A DNA stretch of 55,206 nucleotides from Bacteroidota bacterium. GTDB lineage: Bacteria; Bacteroidota; Ignavibacteria; Ignavibacteriales; Ignavibacteriaceae. Positions 39,769-54,967 of this stretch are shown here, one piece after another (the first letter of the stretch is position 1; each line of letters opens with the position of its first letter). The notes beneath the pieces were generated by a model. That model searched no databases. It saw only the letters and a program-made list of their open reading frames with translations, and was not told the DNA's origin. The position numbers and the translations under genes are program-made. Location: NCBI GenBank assembly GCA_021813585.1, contig JAKAJV010000046.1, positions 1 to 55,206 of the forward strand. The letters run 5' to 3'.

Positions 39769-40746
39769 TCAACTCATCAAGGCTGCTATTGAAGCGGTGT
39801 TTACAATATCCTCAGCGCTGCACCCGCGGCTAAGATCGAAGTAAGGCTTTTTCAATCCCTGGATGATCGGGCCGATAGCCTCACCTTTACCAAGCCTCTG
39901 TGCAATCTTATATCCTATATTGCCTGCATCAAGATCTGGAAATATTAAGACGTTGGCGCGGCCTGCAACCTGGCTACCGGGTGCCTTTCTTCTCCCTACC
40001 GAATCTACAATCGCAGCATCAAATTGAAGCTCGCCGTCAACCTGCAGATCGGGCCGTTTGCTTTTTACAATATTCAATGCAGCGCGAACCTTATCAACCA
40101 TTTCATGTTCCGCGCTACCTTTTGTTGAAAAAGAAAGCATTGCAATGTAAGCCTTTTCGCCGGTCAGCTTCTCGTGGTTTTCCGCAGTAGAAATTGCGAT
40201 ATCCGCAAGCTGCGCCGAATCCGGGCTGGGAACAACGGCGCAGTCGGCAAAGCTGTATGTTTTTTCTGGAAAGACCATAAGGAAGAAACTGGAAACGGTG
40301 GATATTCCTTCCGGCATTCCTACGCACTGTATGCCTGCTCTTAAAACATCCGCCGTGGATGCCGTGGAACCGGCAACGCTTCCGTCGGCCATTCCTTCCC
40401 TAACCATCATAGCGCCGAAGAATAGATCGCGCTTAACGGTATCTTTTGCCTCTTCTATTGAGATGCCTTTCTTCTTTCTTAAGTTGAAATAGATGTTGGT
40501 AAAGTCGCTAAGCTTATCGGCCTTAAAAGGATCTATAATCCTGATGCCGGCAAGATCGACGTTCAATGCTTTGGCGCTGTTTCTTATCTTCTCTTCATCT
40601 CCCAGAGTAATAACAGAGACTACTTTTTCTTTAGTTAAAATTTCGGCAGCCTTTAATACTCTTTCGTCGTGAGACTCCGGCAGAACAATAGTTTTTTTCC
40701 TTCTAGCTGCTTTTTCCTTTATACTATCTAATAATGAATTTCCCAT
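39769..40746 (-). CDS. pta: Phosphate acetyltransferase
   Basis: 325 residues, the short form without the N-terminal regulatory DRTGG domain. Hallmarks include KTIVLPESHDERVLKAAEIL at the start, VAGSTASTADVLRAGIQ, SSFFLMVF, DCAVVPSPDSAQLADIA, GELQFDAAIV and NVLIFPDLDAGNIGYKIAQR. Pta converts acetyl-CoA and phosphate to acetyl phosphate and CoA, for acetate-based energy conservation or uptake. No ackA is adjacent. The gene has its own terminator and transcribes away from the 152-bp repeat at 40877. Confidence 0.95.
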   Translation of the reverse strand: MGNSLLDSIKEKAARRKKTIVLPESHDERVLKAAEILTKEKVVSVITLGDEEKIRNSAKALNVDLAGIRIIDPFKADKLSDFTNIYFNLRKKKGISIEEAKDTVKRDLFFGAMMVREGMADGSVAGSTASTADVLRAGIQCVGMPEGISTVSSFFLMVFPEKTYSFADCAVVPSPDSAQLADIAISTAENHEKLTGEKAYIAMLSFSTKGSAEHEMVDKVRAALNIVKSKRPDLQVDGELQFDAAIVDSVGRRKAPGSQVAGRANVLIFPDLDAGNIGYKIAQRLGKGEAIGPIIQGLKKPYFDLSRGCSAEDIVNTASIAALMS

Positions 40747-40876: not shown

Positions 40877-41028
40877 AATAAATGCCCCCTCCATCTCCCC
40901 CAAAGGGGGAGAGAAAAATACTCGGTCGGAGTATTGACTCCGACCTGCGTTGAGAGACACCCATGACCCACGGGTCGGGGTATTTAAAGTCCTCCCTTTG
41001 GGGGAGGATTTAGAAGGGGCCAATAAAG
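40877..41028. repeat. 152-bp multi-hairpin repeat, copy A
   Basis: This is the same sequence as 54816-54967, same length, with about seven differences by eye, all in the right half. The ends are imperfect inverted repeats (GCCCCCTCC...CTCCCCCAAAGGGGGAG versus CCTCCCTTTGGGGGAGG...GGGGCC). Inside are two more perfect hairpins, GGTCGGAGT-ATTG-ACTCCGACC and GACCC-AC-GGGTC. AATAAA flanks or forms the edge at both ends. It sits between pta and yggS. It looks like a non-autonomous REP/MITE-type element. Confidence 0.85.
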
Positions 41029-41099: not shown

Positions 41100-41804
41100 A
41101 TGATAGCTGAAAATTTAAAGATTGTAAGAGAAGCTATAGACAGGAAGTGCTTCGAGGTAAACAGGCAGCCTTCCGAAATAAAGCTGATTGCGGTGTCAAA
41201 AAATTTCGGGATAGATTACATAAACGAAGCAATTAAACTCGGTTTGAGTGATTTCGGCGAAAACAGGGCTCAGGAACTGGATAAAAAACATGAAATCCTT
41301 GGGGATAAGATTACCTGGCACTTCATAGGAAATTTGCAAAGAAACAAGGTTAGGTTTGTTGTTAACTCCGCCGAATTTATTCACTCAGTAGATTCTCTAT
41401 TGCTGGCGTCTGAAATAAATAAATGCGCCGGTAAAAAAAATAAAATTCAAAAAGTTCTTTTACAAATTAAAACCTCCAAAGAGGAAACGAAATCCGGTTT
41501 AACGGAATTCAGCGAAATTAGAGACCTGGCATTATACTGCAAGGATTTTTCAAATTTGGATTTAGCGGGCTTGATGACTATTGCTCCTTTTACAGACGAT
41601 AAAGATTTAATTAGGAAAAGCTTTACTCAATTGCGTAAATTGAAGGAGAGATTAAATTCTGAAAACTTGAATTTAAAAGAACTATCCATGGGAATGACGT
41701 CTGATTACGAAATTGCTATTGAAGAAGGCGCCACGATGCTGAGGATAGGATCGGGAATATTCGGAGAAAGAGATTATTCAAAAGATTGGAAGGAGAACCT
41801 ATGA
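41100..41804 (+). CDS. yggS: YggS family pyridoxal phosphate homeostasis protein
   Basis: 234 residues. The motifs IKLIAVSKNFGIDYINEAI (with the PLP lysine in VSK), FGENRAQEL, WHFIGNLQRNK, IHSVDS, LAGLMTI and ELSMGMTSDYEIAIEEGATMLRIGSGIFGER are those of PLPBP/YggS/YlmE. The protein binds PLP and helps keep vitamin B6 and amino acid pools balanced. It overlaps the DivIVA gene by four bases (ATGA). This mirrors the ylmE-to-divIVA linkage in Bacillus, except that the intervening sepF, ylmG and ylmH are absent here. Confidence 0.93.
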   Translation: MIAENLKIVREAIDRKCFEVNRQPSEIKLIAVSKNFGIDYINEAIKLGLSDFGENRAQELDKKHEILGDKITWHFIGNLQRNKVRFVVNSAEFIHSVDSLLLASEINKCAGKKNKIQKVLLQIKTSKEETKSGLTEFSEIRDLALYCKDFSNLDLAGLMTIAPFTDDKDLIRKSFTQLRKLKERLNSENLNLKELSMGMTSDYEIAIEEGATMLRIGSGIFGERDYSKDWKENL

Positions 41805-53583: not shown

Positions 53584-54876
53584 ATGAAATCAATTGAAAA
53601 ACCGACCGCCAACCGCCAACAGTCTACCCCCGAATTAATGGCCCCGGCAGGAGACTGGACAATGCTTACCGCCGCAATTAAGGCGGGCGCAGATGCTGTT
53701 TACTTCGGCGTGGATAAACTAAACATGCGGGCTAAGGCAGAAAACTTTTCTACCGGGGACTTGCAAAAGATTTCCGAATACTGTAAGGAACGAAATATAA
53801 AGACCTATCTTACACTTAACACAATCGTCTATGAAGAAGAGCTTGCAGAAGTTGAAGAAATTATAACAGCCGCTAAGGTTGCCGGGATTAACAGGGTTAT
53901 CTGCTGGGACCTTGCAGTTGCGCAGATATGTAAAAAACTCCAAGTGGATTTCTGTATTTCCACACAAGGCTCGGTATCAAATTCCTTAAGCGCAAATTTT
54001 TATAAACAGATTGGTGCAGTAAGAATAGTGCTTGCCAGGGAATGCTCGCTTGAAGAGATAAAAAAAATCAGGGCGTATACAGATCTTGAAATAGAGGCAT
54101 TCGTCCACGGTGCTATGTGCATTGCGGTTAGCGGCCGCTGCTTTATGAGCCACCACCTGTTCGGTAAAAGCGCAAACAGGGGCGAGTGCATACAGCCGTG
54201 CAGAAGAGAATTTGAAGTAACGGATACCGTTACCGGCAAGTCAATGCTTATCGGCGAGGATTATGTACTTTCTGCAAAAGATTTATGCACTATAGAATTT
54301 ATTGACATGTTGATTGAAGCAGGAATAGATTCATTTAAAATAGAGGGAAGAAAAAGAAGCCCGGAATACGTTGCCAAAACCGTCTCAGTTTACCGGCGGG
54401 CGATTGATCTTTATTATATGGGCGAACTAACCGCTGAGATTAAAAAAGAATTATTGCGGGAACTGGAGAATGTTTACAACAGGGGCTTCTCATCCGGCTT
54501 TTATTTCGGCAAGCCGAGCTCCGAAGATTATTCCGATATATACGGAAGCAAAGCCAAGACAAGAAAAGTATACGCCGGCAAAGTTGTGAACTATTATAAA
54601 AAAACCAAAATAGCTCAGGCGTTTCTGGAATCCGGTGAAATTAAGACAGGAGACGAAGTTCTAATTATTGGTTCTAGTTCCGGAGTGGTTAACCTGAAAA
54701 TCACCAATATATTTAAAGATGATGTTCAAACCGTAGCTGCGGCAAAAGGTGATATGATTACTTTTCCATGTGAAGAAACGGTAAGAAACAACGACAGAAT
54801 TTATATCGTCGTCCAAATAAATGCCCCCTCCATCTCCCCCAAAGGGGGAGAGAAAAATACTCGGTCGGAGTATTGA
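53584..54876 (+). CDS. U32 family peptidase / tRNA-hydroxylation-type protein, C-terminus altered by repeat
   Basis: 430 residues. ELMAPAGDWTMLTAAIKAGADAVYFGV is the U32 N-terminus. EAFVHGAMCIAVSGRCFMSHH with the later GECIQPCRR is the U32 signature with its conserved cysteines. DSFKIEGRKRSPEYV follows, and the C-terminal beta-barrel (KVYAGKVVNYYKK onward) is complete. E. coli homologues (TrhP, RlhA) are needed for hydroxylation of tRNA or 23S rRNA. The normal end is close to RNNDRIYIVV. From 54816 the frame enters the 152-bp repeat, which contributes about 19 residues and the TGA. Confidence 0.88.
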   Translation: MKSIEKPTANRQQSTPELMAPAGDWTMLTAAIKAGADAVYFGVDKLNMRAKAENFSTGDLQKISEYCKERNIKTYLTLNTIVYEEELAEVEEIITAAKVAGINRVICWDLAVAQICKKLQVDFCISTQGSVSNSLSANFYKQIGAVRIVLARECSLEEIKKIRAYTDLEIEAFVHGAMCIAVSGRCFMSHHLFGKSANRGECIQPCRREFEVTDTVTGKSMLIGEDYVLSAKDLCTIEFIDMLIEAGIDSFKIEGRKRSPEYVAKTVSVYRRAIDLYYMGELTAEIKKELLRELENVYNRGFSSGFYFGKPSSEDYSDIYGSKAKTRKVYAGKVVNYYKKTKIAQAFLESGEIKTGDEVLIIGSSSGVVNLKITNIFKDDVQTVAAAKGDMITFPCEETVRNNDRIYIVVQINAPSISPKGGEKNTRSEY

Positions 54877-54967
54877 CTCCGACCTGCGTTAAAAGACACC
54901 CACGACCCAAGGGTCGAGGTATTTAAAGTCCTCCCTTTTGGGGAGGACTTAGAAGGGGCCAATAAAG
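54816..54967. repeat. 152-bp multi-hairpin repeat, copy B (overlaps the U32 3' end)
   Basis: This is the same length and orientation as copy A at 40877-41028. Copy B differs mainly in its right half and retains the four hairpins. The left 61 bases are translated as the last residues of the U32 protein (NAPSISPKGGEKN and onward), so the element inserted at or just before the original stop codon. Identity high enough to suggest recent movement, or strong constraint, was judged by eye. Confidence 0.85.

Follow-up and report, generated by a model that had tools for sequence, protein, structure and literature searches.

A composite repeat built on paired intrastrand-triplex motifs and its association with DUF559 genes

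The window analysed here, a stretch of 55,206 nucleotides, contains two copies of a small dispersed repeat that belongs to a known type, the paired triplex repeats, and is itself a new variant of it. Units of the kind found at its two ends are strongly associated, in controlled counts, with genes of the endonuclease-like family DUF559 (PF04480). Based on this linkage, we propose that a DUF559 endonuclease acts in trans to move the element, which would itself be a non-autonomous mosaic repeat; we assign this reading a probability of roughly 0.55. Repeats of the BoxC/PIT/TM kind have been described since the 1990s without a known mobiliser, and we regard the DUF559 link, which names a simply testable partner, as the valuable result. 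If true, a DUF559 partner (ycjD in E. coli K-12) would explain the spread of these widespread repeats, assign a function to a family still listed as unknown in Pfam, and extend the REP-RAYT principle to a second enzyme class.

Structure and copy number of the element

A preliminary description of the window had reported a pair of equal-length four-hairpin elements, nearly identical, about 14 kb apart and in the same orientation. The alignment agrees with this: copies a and b (40877-41028 and 54816-54967) are 95.4% identical. The length given there, 152 bp, has to be shortened to a conserved 151 bp; base 152, a G, is common to only three of the six full copies. The imperfect inverted outer ends (TGCCCCCTCC/GGRGGGGCCA in the copy alignment) and the four hairpins are present as described in the window copies, while of the two inner hairpins that had been called perfect, hairpin C of copy a is not, because it contains one G-T pair. 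The AATAAA edges were found on the left in all seven copies that have a left edge and on the right in six of these seven, the copy on contig C15 ending in AATAAG (Table 1).

Table 1. Positions of the two element copies, their parts and the overlapping gene in the window
Feature	Position	Strand	Remarks
Copy a (151 bp)	40877..41027	+	divergent spacer between pta-like (39769-40746, -) and yggS-like (41100-41804, +) genes
Left edge AATAAA, copy a	40877..40882	+	target or element end; from copy alignment
Left triplex unit, copy a	40885..40911	Y-R-R strand -	predicted; tag CCCCCTC (40885-40891) and hairpin CTCCCCC-AAA-GGGGGAG (40895-40911)
Inner hairpin B, copy a	40924..40945	+	GGTCGGAGT/ACTCCGACC; two pairs changed on both sides relative to subfamily 2
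Inner hairpin C, copy a	40964..40977	+	(C/T)GACCC/GGGTCG; one pair changed on both sides
Right triplex unit, copy a	40990..41019	Y-R-R strand +	predicted; hairpin TCCTCCC/GGGAGGA (40990-41008) and tag AGAAGGGG (41012-41019); one mismatched triad
Right edge AATAAA, copy a	41022..41027	+	from copy alignment
Copy b	54816..54966	+	within the 3' end of the U32-peptidase-like ORF
Left triplex unit, copy b	54824..54850	-	
Inner hairpin B, copy b	54863..54884	+	
Inner hairpin C, copy b	54903..54916	+	
Right triplex unit, copy b	54929..54958	+	
U32-peptidase-like ORF	53584..54876	+	last codons and stop from the element; ends QINAPSISPKGGEKNTRSEY-stop

Folding of copy a as DNA gave a z score of -4.3 and folding of copy b as RNA one of -7.0, with 0 of 200 shuffles as good in either case. 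The left hairpin motif, at up to three mismatches on both strands, has five matches in the window against 0.08 expected. A second subfamily (C92:17087 and C132:46137) has a different left unit, lacks the right unit and keeps both inner hairpins. Over eight copies from the two subfamilies, the four hairpins are paired in 98.6% of cells. The structure-covariation test that the preliminary description had called for yielded a score of 0.207, which none of 500 shuffles (mean 0.126) and no slid version reached. Five pairs were changed on both sides, a number reached by 17 of 500 shuffles; the two-sided cells, ten in number, all lie in the two subfamily-2 copies and therefore represent few independent events.

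The end units share a design in which the tag is the mirror image of a hairpin arm. The left unit reads CCCCCTC-CAT-CTCCCCC-AAA-GGGGGAG in both window copies. The right unit, on the other strand, reads CCCCTCCT-AAA-TCCTCCC with the purine arm GGGAGGA in three of seven copies, and the other four, both window copies included, carry the tag CCCCTTCT with one mismatch. A pyrimidine arm, a purine arm and a mirrored third strand (G against G, A or T against A) are present in both units of both window copies with at most one mismatch. Judged by its letters, the purine strand of the end units is a putative pyrimidine-purine-purine triad, that is, an intrastrand-triplex motif of the BoxC/PIT/TM kind. 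In both window copies, the two units are inverted, with their tags outward, around the two further hairpins. In contigs found by a single hairpin, 28 of 44 unit pairs also had outward tags. The corresponding 13 of 17 in relatives were not used as evidence, because many of these loci came from the inverted-pair model itself.

An initial triad count, with A/T-rich arms admitted, gave a weak result. Of 32 hairpins in the own genome, 14 scored in the mirrored register, 7 in the direct register, 4 upstream and 7 after shuffling; the respective counts in genome G013 were 13, 10, 7 and 8 of 30. G-rich arms were required in the later triad counts, a choice made after this weak result. In the window and the further stretches examined, a third strand with G at every G of the purine arm was then seen in the mirrored register in 4 of 14 hairpins (own genome) and 5 of 14 (G013), against 1 and 2 in the direct register. 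Of the third-strand letters opposite A in the hairpins of these two genomes, 36 of 38 were A or T. Relatives with other arms keep the triad rule, and their third-strand departures from A at A:T pairs are nearly always T, which purine-motif triplex chemistry tolerates at that position. A single unit-like hairpin with its tag lies in frame within a 359-aa open stretch resembling a nucleotide-sugar dehydrogenase (G000:C43:598-628, L238).

The own genome (G000), a draft assembly of 4.54 Mb in 142 contigs, contains six full copies with pairwise identities of 90-97% (two on C104, and one each on C139, C11, C88 and C15), as well as a diverged copy with a replaced middle at C121:39316-39456. A right half-copy at C129:98-190 (L007), near a contig end, breaks at the centre of hairpin B, and its right flank has 116 bp in common with that of copy b. 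Apart from this one duplicated flank, the 200-bp flanks of the six full copies are unrelated by BLAST. The genome-wide count proposed in the preliminary description therefore gives six full copies and not two. Only two copies in the genome and none in relatives had been named there as the outcome that would speak against a dispersed family: the first part does not hold, and the second holds for full-length matches, of which BLAST found none in 163 other genomes of the order. Three matches at E 1e-8 in these genomes each cover one terminal unit. There was no BLAST match in 12 other genomes of the same genus; a structure (covariance) model matched weakly, once each, in G001 and G012. At gathering scores, Rfam reported a single tRNA for the window. 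We rejected a carrier phage or plasmid, as plasmids and phages gave no match at E 1e-3 and an exact-pattern scan of viral contigs gave none either.

In the available part of their paper, Holder et al. (2015, PMC4666352) describe BoxC/PIT/TM intrastrand-triplex motifs with a Y-R-R triad in more than 260 bacterial genomes, state that no link to transposons, phages or plasmids was found, and report that the E. coli motif forms a triplex in a single strand in vitro. The window element resembles this class in its predicted Y-R-R purine-motif triad, its short loops, the inverted pairing of two unit types and the lack of a known mobiliser. It differs in its fixed composite form of 151 bp, which includes two additional hairpins and is edged by AATAAA, in that one of its copies alters a coding end, and in its arms, whose sequences deviate from the E. 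coli TM consensus CCCTCNCCC...GGGNGAGGG given in the same part of PMC4666352. A further difference is that the class is here linked to DUF559.

Association of triplex units with DUF559 genes

Triplex units beside DUF559 ORFs were first seen in relatives found by the covariance model. PF04480 has four matches in the own genome, and matches occur in 51 of 80 genomes of the bacterial family, the own genome included. A unit lies within 250 bp, a limit set before the DUF559 and Y1 counts, of 47 of 60 stand-alone DUF559 genes in the family (on both sides in 20 of the 47); the other 13 of the 60 have none within that distance. These 60 genes are PF04480 matches taken in list order, restricted to new loci and with weaker matches left out; 11 matches were passed over because of contig edges, an internal stop or earlier collection (including the leads L209 and L211), or were skipped (G067:C66 and G073:C209). 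At the same 60 loci, 107 units lie in the 29.8 kb within 250 bp of the genes, compared with 14 in the 68.0 kb more than 600 bp away. As controls, 4000 random places of 320 bp, drawn from 0.8 Mb of own and G013 sequence, had a unit in 29 cases, and 1200 flank shuffles had one in none. Plus-strand units make up 25 of 36 innermost upstream units and minus-strand units 24 of 31 innermost downstream units, the pattern that a gene placed between outward-facing pairs would give.

In a second set of DUF559 loci (L301-L333), 27 of 35 have a unit within 250 bp; the two sets were not summed, because C83 and G079:C144, both leads, are part of the second, and one G081 locus occurs in both. Of the four matches in the own genome, two lie within 250 bp of a unit, the pair on C52 is 266 bp away, and none was found near the match on C100. 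One of the own DUF559 domains (G000:C83:102040-102413; L239, L301) lies in frame within an ORF that we take to be metH-like from its GDVHDIGKN motif, and the domain precedes this motif. Ten loci of the second set have this arrangement (C83 with L307, L310-L312, L314, L317, L319, L321 and L322), and each has one or more triplex units nearby. The metH-embedded form recurs across the family, where it may be inherited rather than mobile. At L308, L309, L313, L315 and L318, DUF559 and triplex units lie in a large ORF that presumably encodes a type I restriction subunit resembling HsdR.

The similarity of the units follows that of the genes. At the 47 loci, DUF559 identity correlates with the best unit similarity (Spearman 0.35), also between genera, and 0 of 1000 permutations were as high; joint inheritance of gene and units could account for this correlation. 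Among 161 DUF559-linked units, the one closest to the window left unit is metH-embedded (a class of 20), as are the three closest to the window right unit, the own one among them. DUF559 has a conserved E.DG..H pattern and a solved relative in PDB 3hrl, an endonuclease-like protein (E 1e-14), and the part of PMC12907096 that was available places it among the Vsr-like PD-(D/E)XK nucleases. In the literature searched, which holds little subscription material, we found no paper that treats DUF559 and intrastrand triplexes together.

DUF559 genes with flanking end-type units occur in several phyla, where the gene is often enclosed by unit pairs in a REPtron-like arrangement. Outside the family, the plasmid collection supplied 17 DUF559 loci (cyanobacteria, Alpha- and Gammaproteobacteria and Deinococcus): 13 of them, against 0 of 340 shuffles, show a unit at no more than 250 bp, and the other 4 have none; units are not rare in these flanks, with 9 in the 30.6 kb more than 600 bp away. 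These 17 were examined out of 26 DUF559 records, several of the other nine being near-duplicates by organism. Among the matches listed, a scan with the hairpin CTCCCCCAAAGGGGGAG found at least 120 contigs with at least 10 DUF559 domains. Of the ten listed, 5 have a triad unit within 250 bp, 7 have hairpin arms within 300 bp and 9 have one or the other, L119 being the exception; these counts are a hint and give no rate, because the contigs were chosen for the hairpin. On Sphingomonas and Deinococcus plasmids, DUF559 genes with triplex units lie insertion-like between operon genes (sufB-sufC at L432, paaD-paaZ at L433).

In E. coli K-12 MG1655, ycjD (1351407-1351760) is a DUF559 gene at 167 bits and, to our knowledge, the only one in K-12. 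We confirmed a BoxC 167 bp from it, number 9 (1351204-1351239) of the 23 TMs of Holder et al.; according to PMC4666352, numbers 16, 19 and 22, at other places in the K-12 chromosome, have the same sequence, and 4 of 5 BoxC pairs face inward by our reading of Table 1 there. By our arithmetic, the chance that one of 18 sites falls within 250 bp of ycjD is about 0.003. A sapF-ycjD-BoxC query was covered to at least 80% in 3361 of 5426 genomes and matched partially in 5375; a partial match may reflect only sapF or only BoxC. DUF559 genes are not universal in E. coli, since the E. coli control genome has no PF04480 match. In the sapF-fabI region (L414, L415, L421-L423), ycjD and BoxC occur together in some strains. 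The 3.8-kb sapF-fabI stretch of three ycjD-less strains contains no triplex unit; as clean empty sites these strains were rejected, because all three carry an efflux gene beside sapF.

A gene ending altered by copy b

The U32-peptidase-like gene, interrupted at its end by copy b, reads into the element and ends in ...YIVVQINAPSISPKGGEKNTRSEY-stop. Three of 12 related loci (G006, G011 and G009) end in ...YIV(I/N)QIVS-stop, five end a few residues further with other letters, and the ends of four were not read out by the script. When copy b was removed in silico together with one AATAAA, the frame continued to ...YIVVQIKAK-stop, which resembles the three relatives. Removal with both AATAAA likewise stayed in frame and gave VVQAK-stop (by reading), so AATAAA fits both as target and as element end. 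The Gln-Ile common to the three relatives weakly favours, by comparison of these predicted ends, one AATAAA in the target. The preference for AATAAA targets suggested in the preliminary description remains in the sense that the hexamer is constant in this element family. As a general target preference it was rejected outside the family, as unit pairs elsewhere (15 in relatives and 31 in named contigs) have no common flanking repeat. In a flank-repeat shuffle test on the own copies, 29 of 500 shuffles reached the observed value, a test that cannot decide the matter because all own copies share AATAAA.

Candidate mobilisers

According to our proposal, the element, as a non-autonomous pair of inverted BoxC/PIT-type triplex units around two hairpins, would spread as a discrete unit of about 145-151 bp into places containing AATAAA. 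A DUF559 endonuclease would recognise the triplex unit and cut or nick it, and this would drive the copying of DUF559's own module and, in trans, of gene-less derivatives. The metH-embedded DUF559 (G000:C83) appears to be the best candidate enzyme for the window element. We see an even chance that the wider generalisation holds, namely that DUF559 drives an undescribed class of mobile elements whose flanks and gene-less derivatives are the BoxC/PIT/TM repeats. Such a class would parallel REP-RAYT, with a PD-(D/E)XK nuclease and triplex-type repeats, would extend over several phyla including E. coli, and could lie in frame within genes.

Homing endonucleases of the PD-(D/E)XK and EDxHD kinds are small nucleases, as is DUF559. 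The in-frame DUF559 modules in metH-like and other large ORFs resemble such enzymes (compare PMC6083498 and PMC3943268), whereas the triplex repeats beside the DUF559 gene and the dispersed gene-less copies set DUF559 apart, and we noticed no intron or intein.

Several explanations without DUF559 have to be weighed. The element shares with MITEs a size below 200 bp, inverted ends and the lack of a gene, and it could be the MITE of an unknown DDE-type transposon with AATAAA as the target duplication. The imperfect inverted ends, the direct AATAAA on both sides and the reconstructed copy b site, which keeps one AATAAA and the shared Gln-Ile, agree with this. We nevertheless consider it rather unlikely, as an identical AATAAA in every copy would be unusual for a target duplication and plasmids and phages have no match. 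Moreover, the end pattern has six exact matches in the genome, every one of them an element copy, and its 19 matches with one or two mismatches stay below the 77 of the reversed control, so that no longer element with these ends was seen; an autonomous partner with the same ends, which would be expected of a MITE, was likewise not seen in the draft assembly of 142 contigs. Spread could also do without an enzyme, by replication slippage or repair at a triplex-forming sequence, with DUF559 loci as rearrangement hot spots that collect units. The half copy broken at the centre of hairpin B, with its 116-bp flank shared with copy b, fits such a process, as does the raised variability around these motifs that PMC4666352 reports, with a discussion of instability, in its available part. 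The six copies are discrete, share one set of ends and lie in flanks that are otherwise unrelated, which argues against it, as does the fact that unit type follows DUF559 identity between genera, and we hold it to be unlikely. A transcription terminator or mRNA-stability element kept for its function at gene ends is very improbable: copy a has two terminator-like sites on the minus strand against 0.6 expected, yet two divergent genes start on either side of it, copy b alters the end of a gene, and congeners yielded nothing beyond the two weak structure-model matches in G001 and G012.

The preliminary description had seen in the element a REP/MITE family and suggested a search for a RAYT-type transposase. 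The dispersed family stands, with its six full copies in flanks that are unrelated but for the one duplicated; the RAYT-type REP does not. Neither the triplex character of the ends nor the link to DUF559 had been noticed there. A REPIN/BIME moved in trans by a RAYT (Y1 tyrosine) transposase would agree with the two hairpin units in inverted orientation, as in a REPIN, and with the host, which has an open-frame RAYT gene (NF047646, 120 bits, G000:C112:6936-7112, L146) and one further IS200-like Y1 match (L145), frameshifted in appearance by reading. The resident RAYT, however, has a REP of its own, the flanking hairpin TGTCACGGAATGGTCCGTGACA found at 36 places at up to three mismatches against 0 for the reversed control, and the window element is absent from the examined stretch around either gene. 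A GT[AG]G tetranucleotide 5' at the hairpin foot is absent from both window copies by eye, and an end-type triplex unit lies within 250 bp of 0 of 50 Y1 genes in the family. On the resident REP and the Y1 count, we rejected RAYT as the mover, and we judge this explanation to be quite unlikely. The DUF559 reading retains the likeness to REPIN/BIME systems in the dispersed inverted hairpin pair and in a presumed partner gene among its repeats; it differs in that the element has neither a GTAG nor a CGTC tag and in that the presumed partner is DUF559 and not a Y1 enzyme.

A first motif scan of 30 Y1 loci, part of whose flanks is missing because several adjoin contig ends, found one lone hairpin (L185). 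At another Y1 locus, L190, four units lie more than 800 bp from the gene, and one pair (L190:3148-3232) lies in frame within another ORF, a 447-aa open stretch resembling a histidine kinase.
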